Below are positions 12,605-16,501 of a stretch of 46,068 nucleotides of DNA, piece by piece (the first letter of the stretch is position 1; each line of letters begins with the position of its first letter). Source of the stretch: Armatimonadota bacterium (GTDB lineage: Bacteria > Armatimonadota > UBA5829 > DTLH01); the NCBI GenBank assembly GCA_029551395.1, contig JAKPFN010000010.1, forward strand, positions 1 to 46,068, given 5' to 3'. A program made the translations under genes and the position numbers. The notes beneath the pieces are model-generated. The model was not told the origin of the DNA and made no database searches. It saw only the letters and a program-made list of their open reading frames with translations.

Positions 12605-13249
12605 ATGGCGGTAGAGAGACGTGACAGGCTGAATGATGTAGAATCCGTTATCTGCCACTTACGTGACGTAGTATCAGCACGGGTAGTTGCAGGAGATGAC
12701 GGCGAAATTGCCGAAGTCCATGTTCTGACTGAGTCTACACGGACACCGAAGCAGGTGGTGCGTGATATAGAGTCAGCAGTCATGGCCAAACTTGGCATTC
12801 AGATCGATCATCGCAAAGTAAGCGTGGCACAGATCCAATCCAACGTCAAGAGAGAAACAGGGAGGCTGAAATTCTCCGATGTATCTATCTCCCTGAATGG
12901 CAGTAGGGCTGAAGCTACTGTCCGATTAGCCCGTAATGGTTCATCTTATATGGGTACATCATCAGGATTAAGTTCCAGTAATGGGCAGATGCGATCAATC
13001 GCTACTGCTACACTCCAAGCAATTGAAGATTCCGGCTGCATTGACGGCACGCTGATGATCGAGGACCTTACAACAAACGTCACATTGGCTAATAAGGCGG
13101 TTGTAGTAATCCTCGTGAATCTGGTGACAGATAGAGGTGAAGAATATCTTACAGGTTCTGCTATAGTTAAGCAGGATTTATGGAAAGCTGTGGTGAATGC
13201 ATCTCTAGATGCAGTAAATCGACGAACTACATTGATATGTGATGATTAG
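12605..13249 (+). CDS. Conserved protein of unknown function
   Basis: This 214-residue soluble protein has no signal peptide and a strong AAAGGAGAG ribosome site. The N-terminal 80 residues (ICHLRDVVSARVV, then EVHVLTESTRTPKQVVRDIE, then GIQIDHRKVSVAQI) look like a small alpha/beta domain. I recall this pattern as a conserved hypothetical in Firmicutes. The C-terminal half (RAEATVRLARNGSSYMGTSS, then ATATLQAIED) faintly resembles a small-molecule-binding regulatory fold such as that of LeuA, which is speculative. It lies 125 bases before the 28-codon peptide ORF and the HD-GYP genes, and may work with them. It is not obviously linked to pheT. Confidence 0.75.
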   Translation: MAVERRDRLNDVESVICHLRDVVSARVVAGDDGEIAEVHVLTESTRTPKQVVRDIESAVMAKLGIQIDHRKVSVAQIQSNVKRETGRLKFSDVSISLNGSRAEATVRLARNGSSYMGTSSGLSSSNGQMRSIATATLQAIEDSGCIDGTLMIEDLTTNVTLANKAVVVILVNLVTDRGEEYLTGSAIVKQDLWKAVVNASLDAVNRRTTLICDD

Positions 13250-13256
13250 ATAAGCT

Positions 13257-13541
13257 TTGAGCCAACGGCGCGAGCGGTAATGGCATGAGCGGAAGATTCA
13301 ACCCGAGCGAAGCGATGTATGCACCCCTACGAGCGGTTTAGGGGTAGATCACGCGAAAGGGGTTGACAACCGAAATGAAACGTCTGTTAAAGGTGCTGAT
13401 CGCTCTGGCAACACTGGCTGCTACCTGCGGAGCTAGCTTTAAGAGTTGGCCTCCTCCATAGTCTAGGATGAAGTGGACTGGGTTTGCAGGTTCTCAGATA
13501 ATGCACTAACTGTAAGGTCTCTGCCAGCGCCGTTGGCTCAA
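13257..13541 (+). ncRNA. 285-nt element closed by a perfect 15-bp inverted repeat
   Basis: 13257-13271 and 13527-13541 are exact reverse complements over 15 bases. The left part holds GAGCGG at 13272, 13287 and 13331 and GAGCGA at 13305. A 7-bp stem pairs 13323-13329 with 13339-13345, its loop showing one GAGCGG, and a GGTT/AACC hairpin lies at 13361-13371. The right part encloses the peptide ORF 13375-13461. No transposase and no flanking target duplication are visible, so a structured RNA or leader is favoured over a mobile element. It matches no riboswitch class that I recognise. Confidence 0.5.
13375..13461 (+). CDS. 28-residue secreted micropeptide candidate
   Basis: The ORF encodes a basic start (MKRLLK), a hydrophobic core (VLIALATLAATCGA) and a short tail (SFKSWPPP), a complete miniature signal peptide followed by about eight residues. 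AAAGGGG (13356-13362) lies 12 nt before the ATG, and a GGTTGACAACC hairpin overlaps its last bases, which could control access. The layout recalls AgrD-type cyclic lactone autoinducer precursors, but no acidic C-terminal tail and no AgrB protease are seen here. Alternatives are a leader peptide or a chance ORF. It lies wholly inside the inverted-repeat element and upstream of two HD-GYP genes. Confidence 0.45.
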   Translation: MKRLLKVLIALATLAATCGASFKSWPPP

Positions 13542-13563
13542 TACTATGAGAGAAATAGTATTG
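13539..13563 (+). promoter_or_regulatory. AT-rich hairpin overlapping the 3' arm of the inverted repeat
   Basis: CAATACTAT (13539-13547) pairs with ATAGTATTG (13555-13563) around a 7-nt loop and is followed by ATTTTC. Its first three bases are also the last bases of the long inverted repeat, so the two structures partly compete. This is a layout typical of a switch or weak terminator, but that is inference. Confidence 0.45.
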
Positions 13564-13715: not shown

Positions 13716-15257
13716 ATGAGCAGCAAAAGGCTGTATTATTACTATTGCCGTGCTTCAATAGCTGCAGCCGTTGTAATGACTGCAACGGTCTACTGCTTAA
13801 TGCCTCCTTCTGCGGATGCATTACAAGGTGCATTCGTTTTTGCAGCTTTAGCATTCATCTCCGAACTCAAACCTGTTAGTGTTCGAACAAATATGTTCGA
13901 GGTTACTATTACTGTTCCCATAGTCTGGGCATCGATGGTGTTATTTGGCCCGTTGAGCGCCATGCTGGTAGCAGGATTAGCGGTCGCAGGCGCAAATGGA
14001 ACAGGATGGATATCCGCACGGGTGATGATATACTTGAGGTCGAAGAACCGAATGCCTCGGCTTCAAAATGCGTTGGCTACAATTGCAGGACCTTGGGAAG
14101 ACAGAGCAGAATATCCTGCACAGTGGGTAATTCAACAGATTCTTTCAAATGCATCACAGGATGCCATTGCTGTCGGCGCTGCTGCCATCATTTATAATGC
14201 CATTGGTGGTAATATTGCCACACACGAAGTGCTGGTTTCTGTGCCTGTTGCAGAAATATTTACTCATTTCATAATTCCATTCTTCATTGCCGTCCTTGCT
14301 TACCTGTTGATTGATGAAGTCCGTCTTATTATGGCTATTATTCTTGGCGAGAATCGGCCAGAAGACACCAGGGACTGGTATAGCTTTTTCCTAAGATGCA
14401 AGATGCTGCTTATTGAATCGCTGCCGGTTGCGGCTGGTCAGTATTTGCTTCTTCCGCCTGTAACGCTGCTTATGCTTTATCTGTATGTGCATGTCGGGCT
14501 AATCAGTGGGCTTGTAGTTGTTGGCCCGTTTCTCGCGCTTCGCTCCGCTGTCCAGAAATCAGTTGAACAACAGCAGCTTTATATGGATACGATAGCTACG
14601 TTGGGTACTTATATGCAGCATTATCATCCGTATACCAGAGGACACCTCAAACGGGTTGCTGATATGTCTGAACGGCTTGCAAGAGAGTTGAGGCTCAATG
14701 CTCAGACTGTTATGCTTATGCCTTATGCTGGTCTGATGCATGACATTGGAAAAGTAGGAGTTTCTGAGGATATCTTAGACAAAGTTGGTAAGCTGACCGA
14801 TGAAGAATGGGCTACAATAAAAGAACATCCGGTCAAAGGTGCTGAGATAGTATCGCACATCGAGTTCCTGGACCAGACTGTTGATTGGATTAAATACCAC
14901 CATAAATGGGCTAATGGTTCTGGTTACCCGGATGACGGAGTCAAAAACGGTAAGGTGCCTATTGAAGCTGCTATCATAGCTGTTGCAGATGCGTTTGATG
15001 CAATGACCGATGACCGGGAGATGTCCATTAGCTGGGAGTGCGATTCCTGCGGCTATAAGCCTGATGATGGACAAAGGCCCGAGTTCTGCCCGGTTTGTAA
15101 TGCTCCTAAACGGAGAACGTATCGTAAGCCGCTGAGCGTGGATGAAGCCATTGATGAGCTTAGACGAGGTGCGGGGACACAGTTCTCTCCTGAGGTTGTC
15201 AAAGCTTTCCTGCAGTTGGTAGATAGAGAGGGAGTCAAAGTTGGTGGAAATGTTTAG
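13716..15257 (+). CDS. Membrane HD-GYP phosphodiesterase with rubredoxin-like zinc-ribbon insert
   Basis: This 513-residue protein has several hydrophobic segments (residues 12-280, a membrane sensor domain) followed by an HD-GYP domain, the family that hydrolyses cyclic di-GMP. Catalytic motifs are intact: GHLKRV, H342-D343 in MHDIGKVGV, and GSGYP at 401-405. Between DAFDAMTDDR and LSVDEAIDELRRGAGTQF lies an extra segment of about 35 residues with CxxCGY (C442, C445) and CPVC (C458, C461), like rubredoxin or a zinc ribbon, suggesting metal or redox control. A TAA directly upstream fixes the ATG at 13716. There is no good Shine-Dalgarno. The next gene overlaps its end by 17 nt. Confidence 0.88.
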   Translation: MSSKRLYYYYCRASIAAAVVMTATVYCLMPPSADALQGAFVFAALAFISELKPVSVRTNMFEVTITVPIVWASMVLFGPLSAMLVAGLAVAGANGTGWISARVMIYLRSKNRMPRLQNALATIAGPWEDRAEYPAQWVIQQILSNASQDAIAVGAAAIIYNAIGGNIATHEVLVSVPVAEIFTHFIIPFFIAVLAYLLIDEVRLIMAIILGENRPEDTRDWYSFFLRCKMLLIESLPVAAGQYLLLPPVTLLMLYLYVHVGLISGLVVVGPFLALRSAVQKSVEQQQLYMDTIATLGTYMQHYHPYTRGHLKRVADMSERLARELRLNAQTVMLMPYAGLMHDIGKVGVSEDILDKVGKLTDEEWATIKEHPVKGAEIVSHIEFLDQTVDWIKYHHKWANGSGYPDDGVKNGKVPIEAAIIAVADAFDAMTDDREMSISWECDSCGYKPDDGQRPEFCPVCNAPKRRTYRKPLSVDEAIDELRRGAGTQFSPEVVKAFLQLVDREGVKVGGNV

Positions 15258-15930
15258 CCAATGGAATACACCTGTTATACTGGCTGTTGGCATTGCTTTA
15301 GTCATAACGCTTGGCAGCACTTACTATTCCACGTTCTATCAGCCTCGTAAAATGGAGCGGGCATATAAACGAGCCTTGTATGCCTTGGCTGCGGCTGTTG
15401 AGACACGGGATTCTGGTACCATTGGTCATGCCCGCAGAGTAGCAGATTATGCAGTTGCAGTAGCTGAAGACTTGGGTATTGATAAAAAGGAGCAGTTAAA
15501 GATTGAATATGCTGCACTTTTGAGAGACATTGGTAAGGTCAATGTTCCTGCTGCACTTCTGAATAAAAGTACCCCGCTTACCGTTGAGGAATGGGAGCAT
15601 GTTAAGACTCACTCGCAGATAGGTGCAGAAATGGTGCAGGCTGTACCATTTCCATTTCTATCATATCTGTCTGACATAATACTGCATCACCACGAGTGTT
15701 GGGATGGTTCTGGTTATCCTGATAATCTTCAAGGGGAGGAAATTCCGCTTGCATCGCGTATTCTAGCTGTAACAACGGATTACGATGCAATAACATCGGA
15801 CCGTCCATATCATGAATCTCAGCCTCATGAGGTTGCAATTGCTCAGATCAAGAGTGGTCGCGGGACCAGATATGATCCTGCAGTAGTCGATGCATTCCTC
15901 AGAGTCATAGAGTCCCTACGTAACAGGTGA
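15241..15930 (+). CDS. HD-GYP protein with one membrane anchor and altered HD pair
   Basis: This 229-residue protein has one N-terminal membrane segment (PVILAVGIALVITLGSTYY) and then an HD-GYP domain. GHARRV, HHHECWDGSGYPDNLQGEEI and DYDAITSDRPY are kept, but the HD pair reads R95-D96 (LLRDIGKVNV): the metal-binding His is replaced by Arg. It may be a regulatory or inactive partner of the intact HD-GYP protein encoded just upstream. It starts inside that gene, at TTG 15241 behind GGGAG (GTG 15244 and ATG 15250 are alternatives), so the two are probably translationally coupled. Confidence 0.88.
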   Translation: MVEMFSQWNTPVILAVGIALVITLGSTYYSTFYQPRKMERAYKRALYALAAAVETRDSGTIGHARRVADYAVAVAEDLGIDKKEQLKIEYAALLRDIGKVNVPAALLNKSTPLTVEEWEHVKTHSQIGAEMVQAVPFPFLSYLSDIILHHHECWDGSGYPDNLQGEEIPLASRILAVTTDYDAITSDRPYHESQPHEVAIAQIKSGRGTRYDPAVVDAFLRVIESLRNR

Positions 15931-15934
15931 AACA

Positions 15935-16501
15935 GTGTTATTTCTTGAGATAGGAGTTTTATCGGTCCTCGTTGCTTTAATAAGGCGGGGACAGATCTTT
16001 CGGCTTGCGGATTTAGAGATCCGGCGGATCTGGCTGGTCACCGTTCCGGTGGCCGTTATTCTTGCATCTATTATATTCCGTCGAACAACACCCCCGGAGA
16101 TTTGGCAGCCTGTTACAGGTGCTCTTCACCTCGTTACCAGCGCTGCACTGTTTGCATTGTTTTGGTCAAACAGAAAACTTCCAGGAATCAAATGGCTTCT
16201 TGCAGGATGGCTGTTGAATTTTGCTCCGATTTTAACTAATGGCGGCCGAATGCCTGTTTCGAAGTGGGCTGTAAAGATAGCTTATGGCAGCGGGCAAGAA
16301 GGCAGAATGCTGCAGCATATATGGATGTCATCGCAGACAAAGTTCAATTTCCTCGGTGATTTCATTCCATTGCCAACTCCTTTAGTTGCCATACCAGAAG
16401 TAGTCAGCCCTGGGGATATACTGATGGCAGTGGGCTTGTTTCTTTTGATTCAATTAACAATGTGCCCCAGAAAGAAAAAAGCATCGGAGAGCAAGGGGTA
16501 G
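15935..16501 (+). CDS. DUF5317 membrane protein
   Basis: This 188-residue protein has about five hydrophobic segments. The family pattern is recognisable: an N-terminal LEIGVLSVLVALIRRGQ, a RLADLEIRRIWLV stretch, the NGGRMPVSKWA motif near residue 105, FLGDFIPLPTPL, and a final SPGDILMAVGLFLLI helix with a basic tail (PRKKKA). Its function is unknown. The GTG at 15935 sits 4 nt after the previous stop, behind AGGTGA. Packing with the HD-GYP genes suggests a joint signalling or envelope role. Confidence 0.8.
   Translation: MLFLEIGVLSVLVALIRRGQIFRLADLEIRRIWLVTVPVAVILASIIFRRTTPPEIWQPVTGALHLVTSAALFALFWSNRKLPGIKWLLAGWLLNFAPILTNGGRMPVSKWAVKIAYGSGQEGRMLQHIWMSSQTKFNFLGDFIPLPTPLVAIPEVVSPGDILMAVGLFLLIQLTMCPRKKKASESKG

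Follow-up and report, generated by a model that had tools for sequence, protein, structure and literature searches.

A candidate structured mRNA for a short peptide in Armatimonadota and other bacterial phyla

We identified a structured RNA element that encloses a short peptide gene on the forward strand of a 46,068-nucleotide stretch of Armatimonadota DNA (the window, by which we mean the whole stretch analysed). Alignments of related loci show a conserved fold, consisting of a closing stem (P1), a core of AGCG motifs and a hairpin (P4), around a conserved and selected open reading frame (ORF), present in single copy beside a gene for a protein of 214 amino acids. The interpretation we favour, with a probability of about 0.55, is that of a structured mRNA encoding a short peptide destined for export; the RNA fold would gate its translation, and the peptide may act as a signal to neighbouring proteins. 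No riboswitch motif had been recognised in the initial annotation, in agreement with the Rfam 15 covariance models, which gave nothing relevant down to E values of 1–10 in the window and ten related loci, c-di-GMP riboswitches included. Pfam and NCBIfam hold no credible match for the peptide or for the 214-aa protein. The open-access literature searched contains no description of the element, and the main text of the RNA-discovery papers covered by that search does not mention HD-GYP or HD-domain genes. The element is therefore filed under no known family; in kind it would be a structured small-peptide mRNA.

The arms of P1 occupy positions 13257 to 13271 (TTGAGCCAACGGCGC) and 13527 to 13541 (GCGCCGTTGGCTCAA). 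They are complementary at 15 of 15 positions and separated by 255 nucleotides, so that the perfect 15-bp inverted repeat with an interior of about 255 nucleotides described in the initial annotation is reproduced at its exact positions. The stem was tested with a gapless-helix score in place of duplex folding of the whole flanks, which is uninformative because long loops allow anything to pair. The helix around the ORF scores 41, compared with a maximum of 28 among 60 shuffles, and the best ORF-flanking helix exceeds all 60 shuffles in 40 of 53 genomes; the other 13 (G020, G222, G034 and G040, for example) do not exceed all of them. The antisense strand also folds well, as is expected of any inverted repeat.

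Covariation in P1 is extensive, with compensatory changes among relatives in both arms. A covariance search of related genomes had been suggested as a check on the proposal that this is 'possibly a new RNA element', and in a within-class alignment of 15 sequences (A3) two-sided changes occur in 8 of 12 closing-stem pairs, while 96% of P1 cells are paired (20–42% in slid controls). Between clades the stem consists of unrelated sequence with complementarity kept, as in the clade-specific versions TGAGCCAACGGC, TGGGCCGACGACG, GAGCCTGTTG, GGGCAAGGCAAGC, GCGAGCCGGGGCC, GGGGCCACTGGAAAC, TCCCCCTATCTTCCC and TTTAGCCGGCGGC. Together with a fixed position throughout the phylum and the lack of an Rfam match, this covariation strongly supports the proposal of a new RNA. 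We conclude that the inverted repeat closes an old, single-copy RNA structure of Armatimonadota, which has weaker counterparts in further bacterial phyla.

A nucleotide search found the element in 9 of 61 genomes, counting the genome of origin. Further relatives were collected by searches with the peptide alignment and the 214-aa protein, after which the DNA 3' of the 214-aa gene was read. The same anatomy and position were present in 52 inspected Armatimonadota genomes from 14 families, each of which carries, in order, the 214-aa gene, the 5' arm, AGCG motifs, a short ORF, and the 3' arm; wherever Armatimonadota genomes were traced further downstream, the membrane HD gene comes next. There is one strong element per genome, and across 291 Armatimonadota genomes strong model matches lie essentially only at this locus. 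Transposable elements can carry inverted repeats of this size, which would suit a repeat arising by chance or from a mobile element, with an incidental ORF. However, no transposon signature was seen in these single-copy elements at their fixed syntenic place, and the relatives, with conserved position, covariation, coding selection and a single copy, refute such an origin, to which we give a negligible probability.

The locus is not uniform among the genomes inspected. In five genomes (G066, G075, G391, G388 and G314) an unrelated gene directly follows the 214-aa gene and the element is absent. In two others (G009 and G010, loci L022 and L023) pheT is immediately followed by the membrane HD gene, and both the 214-aa gene and the element are missing, an arrangement that amounts to a natural deletion useful for comparative tests. 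A degenerate element is found in G011 (L138, positions 643 to 1038), in which the AGCG motifs are lost and the leader of the peptide is altered while the tail WGIWPPR is kept; this copy is possibly a decaying or an alternative form.

The interior of the fold is dominated by AGCG motifs. GAGCGG occurs at positions 13272 to 13277, 13287 to 13292 and 13331 to 13336, three copies within the repeat that account for the repeated GAGCGG motifs noticed earlier, and AGCG motifs recur 5' of the ORF in every inspected element. The core motif GAGCGAAGCG (13305 to 13314) is near-invariant in the core alignments, where the near-invariant nucleotides are GAGCGRAGCG and an AGCG loop. This loop belongs to P4 (13323 to 13345), a hairpin of the form ACCCCTA (CGAGCGGTT) TAGGGGT, for which all five counted pairs show two-sided changes and whose stem exceeds shuffles in most elements, although families f32 and f25 have no clear P4. 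A further pairing, P2, involves the strand TCAACCC at 13298 to 13304, an anti-Shine-Dalgarno sequence that can pair with GGGGTTGA (13359 to 13366) and so include the Shine-Dalgarno region GAAAGGGGTTGA (13355 to 13366). The P2 pairing is conserved; the covariation count found no two-sided changes in it, and pairing of the Shine-Dalgarno region is therefore plausible rather than proven.

Following the closing stem is a perfect 9-bp, AT-rich hairpin (13539 to 13547 and 13555 to 13563). It exists as first described and has the three bases CAA in common with P1. However, it was not seen in the sequences of relatives, so the switch-like layout attributed to it is not conserved and we rejected it as part of a switch. 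A search for an intrinsic terminator inside the window element found none.

A near-invariant core combined with a paired Shine-Dalgarno region is typical of aptamer-plus-translation switches. A classical riboswitch or thermosensor is a further explanation: the AGCG core would bind a ligand, for example a cyclic dinucleotide, and control translation of either the peptide or the HD gene. Such a function could coexist with the favoured reading. However, strong matches are confined essentially to this one locus rather than preceding other operons in the 291 genomes, and no Rfam riboswitch matches; we consider this explanation improbable.

The ORF inside the repeat, which the initial annotation had listed as a side detail, spans positions 13375 to 13461 and comprises 28 codons. 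Its translation, MKRLLKVLIALATLAATCGASFKSWPPP, divides into a leader and a tail (MKRLLKVLIALATLAATCGA and SFKSWPPP), and homologs are found in 52 elements. Differences between relatives concentrate at third codon positions, which in nearly every pair change more often than first and second positions together (15 versus 2 in G044/G225, 12 versus 2 in G002/G004). By this comparison the ORF is under coding selection, and the peptide is probably the product of the element. Since the ORF is conserved and selected, the element is better described as a structured mRNA than as a noncoding switch; the earlier interpretation is supported in part.

The conserved ORFs encode 22 to 46 amino acids. Nearly all peptides consist of a 20-residue leader ending in a small residue, Gly or Ser, and Ala, followed by a tail of 5 to 26 residues. 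Lys or Arg lies near the N-terminus in most, the common design continues with a hydrophobic stretch, and the small-small-Ala site at residue 20 is present in almost all peptides, including those from Bacillota. Small residues at positions -3 and -1 are the rule for signal peptidase I, and the end of the leader resembles such a site. Judged by pattern, the features of Sec export (a positive start, a hydrophobic core, and small residues at -3 and -1) are found in most, not all, members; the leader differs in the f25 peptides, which do not fit the common design. Tails are family-specific (SFKSWPPP, FLKYWPPP, RLAWP, SGIFWPK, KRVYYPNRWDDPLERPHQTVQVP and KLEIYPPPKPPPPPSASY). A conserved Cys or Ser suitable for a thiolactone ring was sought in the tails and not found. 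An agr-type system was rejected, the tails having no conserved Cys and AgrB (PF04647) not being found in the genome.

In many tails the stop codon is immediately preceded by Pro or PPP (WPPP-stop here, WP-stop in other families), and a Pro-rich context directly before a stop slows ribosomes. With the element lying in an operon-like row of genes, these endings raise the alternative of a regulatory leader peptide: ribosomes that translate the short ORF, or stall on it, would change the RNA fold and regulate the HD genes further along by TnaC-type attenuation. However, the tails share no single arrest motif, with endings as varied as GGGG, CVR, GGRNDW and ASY, and a sensor based on pulling by the Sec machinery is unlikely because a 28-aa chain is still within the ribosome tunnel. 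In addition, the P1 arms lie outside the ORF and reach up to approximately 94 nucleotides beyond the stop codon, and one relative (G398) has no co-directional gene to control. Attenuation therefore appears unlikely to us, if less so than the other alternatives considered here.

The hydrophobic peptide also invites comparison with type I toxin mRNAs of the hok/aapA kind, in which end-to-end pairing and masking of the Shine-Dalgarno sequence restrain translation and an antisense RNA provides silencing. The aapA3 mRNA has a similar layout, with a short hydrophobic peptide, an upstream anti-Shine-Dalgarno sequence, and long-distance pairing between the two sides of the mRNA (PMC6733600). However, the element occurs strictly once per genome and keeps one locus throughout a phylum, its peptides have a signal-peptidase-like site at residue 20 and lineage-specific tails, and the Shine-Dalgarno region is not the pairing partner of P1. 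With the antisense strand counted as well, promoter-like sites are near chance and in no clear excess (3 found, 1.5 expected, sd 1.2). A toxin mRNA is thus a poor candidate.

The RNA domain lies between the 214-aa gene (12605 to 13249) and the membrane HD-domain gene (13716 to 15257), with pheS and pheT upstream. The 214-aa protein has orthologs in the phylum, and a Foldseek search with its AlphaFold model matched the LeuA regulatory domain (E value 4e-6, probability 1.0), predicting a LeuA-like fold in the C-terminal half and an alpha/beta part at the N-terminus. In three genomes the 214-aa gene instead directly precedes a purM-like gene. The membrane protein matches Pfam HD_5/HD; HD_5 is present in all orthologs scanned and an N-terminal MASE9 match in several. 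After its HD core, at approximately residues 439 to 466, the window protein carries a rubredoxin-like Cys4 insertion (WECDSCGY...CPVCNAPK), which matches Pfam PF21349 at 8.6e-6, just under the cut-off. A second HD_5 protein with the signature HHHECWDGSGYP (15241 to 15930) and a DUF5317 protein (15935 to 16501) follow on the forward strand, the latter in a conserved neighbourhood. The genes that the initial annotation had called HD-GYP-type are therefore HD-domain genes by Pfam, and their association with the element is frequent.

The association is not obligatory, however. G398 has both the element and the 214-aa gene but no co-directional HD gene; beyond the element lie a terminator-like hairpin and a transporter-like gene in convergent orientation. 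In G347 the first long ORF past the element is on the other strand. Since the HD gene is separable from the element, the minimal unit that stays constant is the 214-aa gene together with the RNA and peptide. For the same reason a c-di-GMP riboswitch that controls the HD gene is not our preferred interpretation, and these gene arrangements make a switch acting in cis on the HD-GYP gene unlikely. For divergence of the peptide tails, the partial r is 0.40 against the 214-aa protein and 0.20 against the membrane domain, values that are confounded by phylogeny and affected by some uncertain start codons.

A covariance model (R1) trained on 20 Armatimonadota cores only served as a held-out test of the element beyond the phylum. 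In the window it matches positions 13293 to 13364 with 63 bits, with no other credible match there. On held-out loci it matches at the predicted place in L196 (31 bits), L186 (29.5 bits), L188 (24.3 bits), L155 from Natranaerobius (24.2 bits) and L194 (18.9 bits), the weakest match being L156 from Subdoligranulum (13.7 bits, E value 0.06). Plasmids of two Bacillota, Natranaerobius thermophilus and Subdoligranulum variabile, encode the 214-aa protein, and behind both genes an AGCG core is accompanied by a peptide of the leader type (MNKVVLILVTLLGVVLAGGA with the tail SFTWGGGG and MKKILFALASLCSLVLASGA with the tail FFCVR, respectively). The element also lies beside the 214-aa gene in two more phyla, represented by G355, G400, G398 and G347; the peptides of the first three end in GGRNDW and the ORF of G347 is masked in the sequence. 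P1 is weak outside Armatimonadota, and in Natranaerobius consists of 10 bp, with 16 of 200 shuffles as good. Terminator-like hairpins follow the element in L196 (approximately 1230 to 1180, minus strand) and L194 (approximately 2380 to 2405), and the element therefore seems to end a transcript in the phylum of these loci.

Under the favoured reading of a structured mRNA for an exported peptide, the ribosome-binding site is likely masked in P2 and P4, so that the RNA fold would determine the timing of peptide synthesis. P1 likely isolates the domain in the operon transcript and may permit its excision or stabilisation. A leader of about 20 residues would then take the peptide to the membrane, where, to judge from the -3/-1 pattern, it is fairly likely to be cut after the conserved Ala and to set free a short lineage-specific tail, here SFKSWPPP. 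The neighbouring proteins, one with MASE9 and HD domains and one with a LeuA-regulatory-like fold, are of signalling type. Our leading guess, a tentative one, is that the tail is a signal sensed by the 214-aa protein or by the MASE9/HD-GYP membrane protein and that it feeds into cyclic-dinucleotide turnover. A wider generalisation, which we consider less likely than not, is that the whole forms an RNA-gated cell-cell signalling module, with an exported peptide and a LeuA-like and/or MASE9-HD-GYP sensor setting cyclic-dinucleotide levels, and that this module is shared by Armatimonadota, Bacillota and two or more further phyla.

The element would represent a new family of structured RNAs in which a peptide gene under selection is embedded; it extends phylum-wide and beyond and is absent from the family libraries searched. 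Should the peptide prove to be exported, Armatimonadota would have a candidate peptide signal with a physical link to HD-GYP second-messenger enzymes, and what MASE9-type sensors detect could be tested directly. To our knowledge no peptide signal is known in Armatimonadota. The dual constraint of fold and peptide also marks a kind of element that can escape a search limited to noncoding RNAs or one limited to proteins.

Among known systems, hok and aapA3 type I toxin mRNAs are alike in their small hydrophobic peptide, upstream anti-Shine-Dalgarno sequence and long-distance pairing. In contrast, the element described here occupies a fixed single-copy locus across a phylum, encodes by pattern an export-type cleavage site and a variable tail, possesses the AGCG core and hairpin, and holds its closing stem away from the Shine-Dalgarno region. 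TnaC-type attenuators similarly place a short ORF with a Pro-rich end inside a structured RNA, whereas the element has no common arrest motif and in one relative no co-directional downstream gene. Riboswitches for c-di-GMP and other ligands share the conserved core, the paired Shine-Dalgarno region and the HD-GYP neighbourhood; however, the element has no Rfam match, is restricted to one locus, and encloses a peptide ORF. The SHP/Rgg and agr AgrD pheromones are also short precursors with a hydrophobic leader, a lineage-specific C-terminal tail, and candidate sensor genes adjoining. Unlike these, the element comes without AgrB in the genome or a conserved Cys, its ORF is surrounded by a conserved RNA fold, and its candidate sensors are LeuA-like and MASE9-HD proteins.
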